This document shows positions 24,166 through 26,361 of a stretch of 64,000 bases of DNA, one piece after another (position 1 is the first letter of the stretch; each line of letters begins with the position of its first letter). A model generated the notes under the pieces. The model ran no database searches. It was not told the origin of the DNA and saw only the letters and a program-made list of their open reading frames with translations. Made by a program: the position numbers and the translations under genes. This stretch comes from Dysidea avara (Eukaryota; Porifera; Demospongiae; Dictyoceratida; Dysideidae): the NCBI RefSeq assembly GCF_963678975.1, contig NC_089279.1, forward strand, positions 29,551,525 through 29,615,524, in the 5' to 3' direction.

Positions 24166-26361
24166 TTAATCTACCAATTTCTTTAAAGGATAATAGTTTT
24201 TTTGATCAACTAACTTTTGTAGCAAGTTATAATAACGACATGGATCTGTATTTGCCAAATGTGCAACCTTGTCAAAATAATTCTTATCAGTGACGTCATC
24301 ACTGTTTTGATCAACTTTATTCAGTTCCTCTTTAAGTTTATCCTTTTCTATTTTATCATCACCATAATGGGAATCAGTAAAAAACAAAACTCCTCTTCGT
24401 CCATCTCTACCATTGATTTTAGCATGGTAAAACTGAAAGACAAATCTACATCTTGAAATCTTTTTCCAGTTCTGCATTTGTCTGGTTATTAACTCTGCAT
24501 TCTTCTTTAAATGATTATCATTACTGATAACAACATCTTTTAGCTTTTTTTGAACATGGACAACCCTCATTTCAACGTAACTTGTATTAACATACTTGTG
24601 CTCAGTACAGCTGCATTCTATTCTATTTATGGGCTTAAATGACTGCATATCTCCATGATGTTTATTCTCTTTATTTCGGAAGTGTCTAACGTCATACAAG
24701 TTTTTCAGTCGACGATTATCTGGAAGTGCTGCTGCAGTAGATGATGGGAAAAAGTAATCCTGCAAGGCCTTCAATGCCATTTCTAAGTCTTCATGTTTAT
24801 ATTCATATGCACAATTTTTAGTATGATCGGTACAATCATATTTGCAATCACTATGCATATAAAAGCAGTCTATTTGTTGTTCCTTGAATAGCTTGACAAA
24901 GCGACAATCCTTTTTACGTAAATGAAACATATCAACCCAAGGAAGCTCATTTTCACCGAATTTTTTAAGCAGTGGTGTAACTGACCTTTTTGACAATGGT
25001 ATTTCAACTTCTGAATCATCTATCCATACCAGAAAGTCAAAATATTGATGTTGATTAGGAAACACAATGTAAAACTCAGGAGAGAACAAGCATACTCCAA
25101 CAGAACAAAGATGATATTCATGCAAAGCATTTTCACTTGGTCCATTTGTACTATTGAGTATTGATTGCATTATTGCATGCCAGTGATATGCAGCAAGTGC
25201 CCTCATAGTATAGTAATTATTCTTCCCCCAGTATCCGTGTAACATTGCCACAAAGAATTGCAAATGATCCACAAGGCCCCATTCATTTTTACTCAGGAAC
25301 ATAAAGGTTTCTTCAGTCACCTGCAAAAGTTGTATTTCAGATGCAAGTTCAATTATTTGATATAATTTTCGACGCTCCAATTCAGCTTCACATTTCCTAC
25401 GTACTCTATCAATCAACATCTCCTTGGTTATTGGAGGGGCAGTAGCACTAGTGCTCATGGCCAGTTCTCTTTTAAAATTGCCAATAAATGTTCTAATATA
25501 ATATTCTCCACGTGTTTCAGCAGTGAAAGTATGGTATATTTCCAACTGCCAACATGACAATGGGATTTCTTCTACTGAAATGTTCAGTGATTCAGGCAGC
25601 CTTAACCCTGCATTGAGAAGGTACAGTTCCCGGGCTCTAGAGAAATTTTGCCCTTGAAGGTCCATGCTATACCTACTACCTGTCACATCAGAAGTGTTGA
25701 AAATATCAAGAAGTTTTTGAGCTGTTGCTTGTTCATCTTTTGCATTTAAAAAAAGTACAGAATCACGGCATTCAAGATTGCATCTTATGTCTGCATAAGC
25801 ACAACCAAAGGAGTCCCTTATGTTCTTTTTTAGTGAAGTCACATCATCATCCTGTCTTAGTAAATGCAAATAGTATTGTATACCTAACACAGGAACTGTA
25901 TAGCACAGCTCATCCTTATATATTCTTCTTTGAAAGAAGCTAAAAACTGTGTTCTGCCATTCTGGGAGTTGAGAGAACATTGTAAGGGGACCATAACGAG
26001 CATTCCCACCACAACAACCCAAGAACACAACAAGGAATGGTGGTTCGGGGTGCAAAAGAGTTTCCATGATATCTGAAATGGCCAGTGTCCCAAAATTAAA
26101 GGCGTTTGAGTGGCCGAGAATAACAACAATGTCCGATTTAGAAGAAAGGTCCTCCTGCTCCATCAACACAATGAAGTCGTTAAATGTCAACAGCTTAATG
26201 TCGTCGGAAGGGATGGTCTCAGCTGAAAACTGCACCCCAGGGTCAAGCTGTGTACTTTTGGTGTAGTTTGGTGACATCACGAACAAATTACGGAGTTCCT
26301 CTGCTTCCGACTTTAACGCGTCGTTTAAATAAAACAATCTAACTTTACTAGCTGCCTCCAT
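24166..26361 (-). CDS. CHAT/caspase-like family protein, gene D (intact)
   Basis: A single uninterrupted frame of 731 codons from ATG 26361. An upstream in-frame ATG at 26400 would add 13 residues, but MEAASKVRLFYLND aligns with the starts of the other copies. In order: first strand VRLFYLND (7-14); IVVILGHS with His84; FLGCCGG with Cys116/117; EWQNTVFSFFQRRIY and IQYYLHLL with a following helix, resembling the C-terminal half of a CHAT domain; EIPLSCWQLEIYHTF; DHLQFFVAMLHGYWGKNN; YHLCSVGVCLFSPEF; ELPWVDMF; YEYKHEDLEMALKALQDYFF; EMRVVHV; CRFVF; and LFFTDSHYG ending at 667. There is a Lys-rich tail. No signal peptide or membrane segment. His and Cys are conserved in all copies that retain the region. 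A peptidase role is inference, and I know no named family with the remaining regions. Confidence 0.85.
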   Translation of the reverse strand: MEAASKVRLFYLNDALKSEAEELRNLFVMSPNYTKSTQLDPGVQFSAETIPSDDIKLLTFNDFIVLMEQEDLSSKSDIVVILGHSNAFNFGTLAISDIMETLLHPEPPFLVVFLGCCGGNARYGPLTMFSQLPEWQNTVFSFFQRRIYKDELCYTVPVLGIQYYLHLLRQDDDVTSLKKNIRDSFGCAYADIRCNLECRDSVLFLNAKDEQATAQKLLDIFNTSDVTGSRYSMDLQGQNFSRARELYLLNAGLRLPESLNISVEEIPLSCWQLEIYHTFTAETRGEYYIRTFIGNFKRELAMSTSATAPPITKEMLIDRVRRKCEAELERRKLYQIIELASEIQLLQVTEETFMFLSKNEWGLVDHLQFFVAMLHGYWGKNNYYTMRALAAYHWHAIMQSILNSTNGPSENALHEYHLCSVGVCLFSPEFYIVFPNQHQYFDFLVWIDDSEVEIPLSKRSVTPLLKKFGENELPWVDMFHLRKKDCRFVKLFKEQQIDCFYMHSDCKYDCTDHTKNCAYEYKHEDLEMALKALQDYFFPSSTAAALPDNRRLKNLYDVRHFRNKENKHHGDMQSFKPINRIECSCTEHKYVNTSYVEMRVVHVQKKLKDVVISNDNHLKKNAELITRQMQNWKKISRCRFVFQFYHAKINGRDGRRGVLFFTDSHYGDDKIEKDKLKEELNKVDQNSDDVTDKNYFDKVAHLANTDPCRYYNLLQKLVDQKNYYPLKKLVD

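Follow-up and report, generated by a model that had tools for sequence, protein, structure and literature searches.

A 64-kb stretch of the genome of the sponge Dysidea avara (C8:29551525-29615524, hereafter the window; GC content 36%; assembly of 550.8 Mb in 108 contigs) carries a 731-residue gene, called D here, and several related copies, which had been proposed from sequence alone to form an undescribed family of CHAT/caspase-like peptidases or degenerate peptidases. The question raised by this locus is whether these proteins are indeed caspase-fold enzymes and, if so, how they relate to the CHAT and caspase families already named. Analysis of the predicted structure of D strongly suggests an N-terminal domain with a caspase-hemoglobinase-like fold, nearest to CHAT, and with modest confidence we favor a reading in which the family comprises cysteine proteases whose CHAT/caspase-like first 210 residues are joined to a C-terminal half acting as a sensor or restraint. 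The parts of D referred to below are as follows.

24166-26361, minus strand: gene D, a single open frame of 731 amino acids with a CHAT-like N-terminal domain and a C-terminal half
25732-26361, minus strand: residues 1-210, predicted caspase-hemoglobinase (CHAT-like) domain
26107-26121, minus strand: ILGHS motif, with the His84 codon at 26110-26112
26005-26019, minus strand: GCCGG motif, residues 115-119, including Cys116 and Cys117
25027-25590, minus strand: residues 258-445, helical segment in which W361, Q368, G376 and W378 are conserved (HLQFFVAMLHGYWGKN)
24169-24954, minus strand: residues 470-731, C-terminal segment of alpha/beta type in which W475, E597, C638, R639, T662, H665, Y666 and G667 are conserved

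Predicted fold and candidate catalytic residues

In the model of D, the His follows strand 3 and the Cys strand 4 of an alpha/beta/alpha domain, in agreement with where the original prediction had put these residues in a caspase/CHAT-type fold. When the full-length model was compared with solved structures using a second structural aligner, SAVED-CHAT covered 166 residues and led the best unrelated row by approximately 5 Z units, and the top 27 rows were caspase-fold peptidases without exception. This ranking argues against a generic alternating alpha/beta fold, whether response-regulator-like or of another type, with the His and Cys put to a different use, for example metal binding, an explanation we regard as quite unlikely. 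For the approximately 500 residues after the core, structure comparison gave no clear match to a known fold, consistent with the earlier failure to recognize anything in this part of the protein.

Conservation of the candidate catalytic pair was examined in an alignment of 56 rows, from which the database entry for D itself (P0001) was excluded from the outset; removing nine database repeats of copies from this genome and one long frame lacking the N-terminal domain (L039) left 46 distinct rows. The relatives were gathered via shared words, and the sample is thus biased toward conserved motifs. His84 and Cys116 were present in 46 of 46 distinct rows and Cys117 in 45, while Arg145 and Glu151 were each kept in 44 of 45. 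Considering columns with at least 28 rows, H84 and H665 alone among the 24 His columns of D, and C116, C117, C324 and C638 alone among its 19 Cys columns, were kept in at least 90% of rows. The distance from His84 to Cys117 ranged from 29 to 37 residues and was 33 in 34 of the 46 rows; one relative (P0017) has an additional LGHG earlier in the chain, with normal spacing of the aligned His and Cys. The order and spacing of the pair lie within the CHAT-separase range, since excerpts of PMC9729208 give a spacing of 42 for TPR-CHAT (H585, C627) and 26 for human separase (H2003, C2029). Cys117 would be the likely nucleophile as judged from motif register with the CHAT proteins of this genome (LSSCDSG, LSCCRSS). 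The latter motif belongs to a CHAT of the same genome (L044, C10:25718940-25719956) in which the double Cys resembles the GCC of the D family. In three relatives (P0028, P0029 and P0038), reading by eye revealed a strongly hydrophobic stretch ahead of the GHS strand resembling one or two membrane helices.

The main rival is that these proteins are caspase-fold pseudoenzymes, in which fold and conserved residues are kept for structure or binding and the protein serves as a non-cutting scaffold or decoy, a possibility that we consider unlikely. Pseudoenzyme families often lack one of the catalytic pair, whereas here the His and both Cys residues persist at the frequencies given above despite relatives with only about 23-30% identity to D. 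Peptidase activity itself appears likely. The mechanism we favor is that of a CHAT-type cysteine protease in which Cys117 (or Cys116) would be activated by His84, with the C-terminal half as a putative signal sensor or as a restraint on the enzyme until needed. The protease may be used in cell death or the response to microbes.

Several observations weigh against the protease reading. Foldseek alone gave a best E value of 0.21 and placed neither CHAT nor caspase in the best 50 of 180 rows, and the CHAT match thus comes from the second aligner used with the full-length model of D. Of the 46 rows, 43 have Ser at residue 85 and the other three have Ala or Ile, compared with the Gly of CHAT and caspase, and a weak caspase alignment places the caspase Cys on Cys116 rather than Cys117. 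One paralogue on C2 (L042) lacks Cys117 yet maintains an intact open frame of 871 codons; it reads ILGHSS and FLCCNEGN, with Asn at position 117 under gapless alignment. The original prediction had named homologues in other genomes without the His or the Cys as evidence against itself, and this paralogue in the same genome is partly such a case, lacking Cys117 but keeping His84 and Cys116. Likewise, the statement that the motifs do not change held inside the window but not across the genome, where Asn117 in L042 and the replacement of Ser85 in three of 46 rows are exceptions.

Profile comparison also provided no link to the known families. The N-terminal domain (55 rows) was compared by hhalign with eight CHATs or 12 caspases of the same genome, yielding non-significant probabilities of 0.35% and 0.24%, respectively. 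The CHAT score of 16.74 was exceeded by one of 20 column shuffles and equaled by another (16.73), although the reversed profile scored below the real one (11.4 versus 16.7); in the caspase comparison, a score without a shuffle control, the reversed profile matched the real one (15.6 versus 15.4). Since CHAT and caspase, although they share a fold, gave a probability of just 0.12% against each other, this test has little power, and at the sequence level common descent with CHAT or caspases is neither proved nor excluded. Because the profiles failed to connect the core to either family, it is the predicted structure that carries the fold assignment.

Relationship to named families

Searches of known families support the earlier description of the family as undescribed. 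Pfam searches with 24 family members revealed no credible family among the 25 listed out of 31, NCBIfam and PADLOC provided no name for the four members tried, and a sequence search of solved chains (PDB) gave nothing above noise. Matches to Orthopox_A49R (E 0.0007) and DUF5101 (E 0.0014), each in one of 24 members, were attributed to chance, and a match to NleF belongs to a reverse-transcriptase frame and falls below its cut-off. The matches listed from the literature on CHAT/caspase-like proteins of sponges, metazoans and eukaryotes, largely open-access and represented by excerpts, contained no account of the family. Thus, the fold clan is named and the family is without a name.

The same genome contains 22 CHAT (PF12770) and 89 caspase (PF00656) matches, counted as matches and not genes, and none of these listed places coincides with the loci of the D family. 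The caspase matches include a dense cluster on C9 (3.1-3.5 Mb), and CHAT clusters occur on C15 (8.6-8.9 Mb) and C10 (12.7-12.9 Mb).

Comparison with the solved CHAT domains, such as SAVED-CHAT (PDB 8tl0) and the TPR-CHAT of Craspase, showed that the predicted fold of the D family matches while several features differ. The family is absent from the PF12770 matches, both in the Pfam families listed for its members and at the 22 genome places, and has GHS where CHATs have THG (THG or AHG in this genome). Its domain is followed by the roughly 500 residues lacking a clear known fold, with SAVED and TPR absent among the families listed. SAVED-CHAT is described in excerpts of PMC11229360 as a cA3-activated CRISPR/CBASS effector, a setting absent for the D family. 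Caspases (PF00656, peptidase family C14) differ in that PF00656 is not among the families listed for the D family, and in that their QACRG/QACxG pentapeptide is missing, the motif being GCCGG. Separase (family C50), with its protease domain behind a long arm of helical repeats, and the C11/legumain peptidases appear to have another domain layout, and the D family showed no sequence match to solved chains.

Corals have been reported to possess numerous CHAT-domain TPR proteins, and a role in cell death or the response to microbes has been suggested for the multiplied CHAT and caspase-like genes (excerpts of PMC6208414). The coral TPR-CHAT proteins are presumably of the PF12770 kind and distinct from the D family. 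On the analogy of this suggestion for the corals, we guess at a cell-death or immune role for the D family, which may represent a further line of such proteins. If active, it would constitute a protease family unnamed in the Pfam and NCBIfam versions searched, in a genome already containing the caspase and CHAT matches noted above, and would add to the range of caspase-fold proteins known from early animals, with a C-terminal half that combines conserved residues with no clear known structure. A more far-reaching and doubtful proposal casts the family as a third, unrecognized group of executioners with a caspase fold, alongside the caspases and CHATs of an early animal. Its members would lack introns, occur in many copies and carry a fast-changing sensor half of new fold on a conserved protease, for cell death or antimicrobial immunity.

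Copies in the window and across the genome

Comparison of D with the window by tblastn identified three further copies, A (58% identity over 195 columns, E 4e-58), B (43% over 648 columns, E 1e-133) and F (31% over 648 columns, E 6e-80). These and two relics are listed with motif positions from a six-frame scan of the window.

1-577, minus strand: N-terminal part of copy A, continuing beyond the window start (L031 in the genome, where its open frame has 889 codons); ILGHS at 317-331, GCCGG at 215-229
11156-13450, minus strand: copy B, broken, with a 454-codon frame at 11784-13148 and family pieces on either side in other frames; ILGHS at 12999-13013, GCCGG at 12897-12911
32690-35494, minus strand: copy F, 934 amino acids from MASQ within an open frame at 32690-35560; divergent, 31% identical to D (database entry P0016); ILGHS at 34961-34975, GCCGG at 34859-34873
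40432-42436, minus strand: relic with broken frames; GCCGG at 42391-42405
29893-30461, minus strand: second relic, in which pieces of the C-terminal half alone were found

As had been noted from the sequence, GHS and GCCGG are common to A, B, D and F, and the first relic retains the GCCGG part without ILGHS. Since tblastn ties D to A, B and F, and database relatives reach down to 23% identity, the sharing of these motifs extends beyond chance. Copy B contains an almost perfect inverted repeat, with 163-nt arms (12976-13138 and 13140-13302) that are 98% complementary and separated by 1 nt. The repeat doubles the GHS region head to head inside the broken gene and places an additional ILGHS on the plus strand at 13265-13279; it could be an assembly foldback artefact or a source of hairpin RNA. 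The frame of D itself stops just short of the conserved last strand of its relatives, PFxxIGxL (around 24166-24230), and its last residues are unlike the rest of the family. The C-terminal end of D thus looks damaged, the early stop being either a natural allele or an assembly error.

A whole-genome search with D identified 17 places, on C1, C2, C5, C6 (three), C8 (eight, including the two relics), C10 (two) and C12; searches with L042 and P0024 recovered 15 and 16 of these, respectively, and no new one. Ten places have uninterrupted long open frames of 745-1168 codons, distributed over all seven of these contigs, and the rest are broken or partial; one long frame (L038) lacks the C-terminal end, which sits in another frame. 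Three protein searches yielded 24, 2 and 16 proteins, 42 in total, of which at least ten are copies from this genome or nearly identical to such copies.

The 17 places bear out the earlier view that the family expanded in this lineage, but some of this expansion seems to predate the species because, for several copies, closer partners are found in database proteins absent from the places in this genome (F and P0027, 56% identity; L033 and P0013, 81%; A and P0002, 62%). In a 44-row tree, the label "this genome" requires eight changes, indicating that the copies are interspersed with database proteins and that several subfamilies appear to predate the species. Searches gave 86 pattern matches in prokaryote genomes and 12 matches in viral contigs with no confirmed relative in either, so that a bacterial or viral origin is unsupported at this sensitivity. 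The family is probably one of sponges.

The distribution of uninterrupted frames over seven contigs would also be expected if a mobile element were spreading intronless copies with the domain serving the element, an explanation that we consider very improbable. Similarity between the C5 and C12 copies, a further point in its favor, spans 3.1 kb, its edges lying approximately 320-330 bp ahead of the frame and 90-100 bp beyond it. However, a search of these ends (terminal repeats were not searched for) found neither a poly(A) tail nor a 7-base repeat common to the two edges, and beside one end of the pair lies a hairpin insert that may itself define that edge. In addition, three other close pairs (L037/L038, L040/L041 and L032/L033) are similar deep into their flanks, as in plain segmental duplication, and transposase, integrase and reverse transcriptase were absent among the Pfam matches listed. 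Retrocopy or transposon origin, examined at the edges of the C5/C12 pair, thus found no support.

Selection on the two halves

Constraint on the two halves of the protein was compared using dN/dS (Nei-Gojobori) for the N and C parts of 38 listed pairs having both halves and an overall dS below 1.5; the pairs are non-independent, some rows are broken copies, synonymous sites are close to saturation in older pairs, and no formal test was applied. One pair had equal ratios, and 27 of the 38 had the lower ratio in the N part, as for D-L034 (0.28 in N, 0.36 in C), A-D (0.34, 0.54) and D-L033 (0.28, 0.50). To the points already raised against the protease reading must be added the ten pairs with a lower ratio in the C part, such as A-L036 (0.49, 0.47) and L033-L036 (0.55, 0.45), and young pairs with high ratios in both halves, L037-L038 (0.88, 0.92) and A-B (0.70, 0.70), which suggest that recent copies may be decaying. 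In another young pair, L035-L036, the ratio was 0.50 in the N part and 0.96, nearing 1, in the C part. As estimated from these substitutions, older copies are under constraint, and young ones show weak constraint, decay or diversification.

Apart from the family, the window contains a LINE-type open frame on the plus strand between copy F and the first relic (37623-40187; endonuclease PF14529 and reverse transcriptase PF00078), a tandem pair of a 259-bp unit (98%) at 27644-28175, and an array of 62 TACA repeats at 51474-51721.
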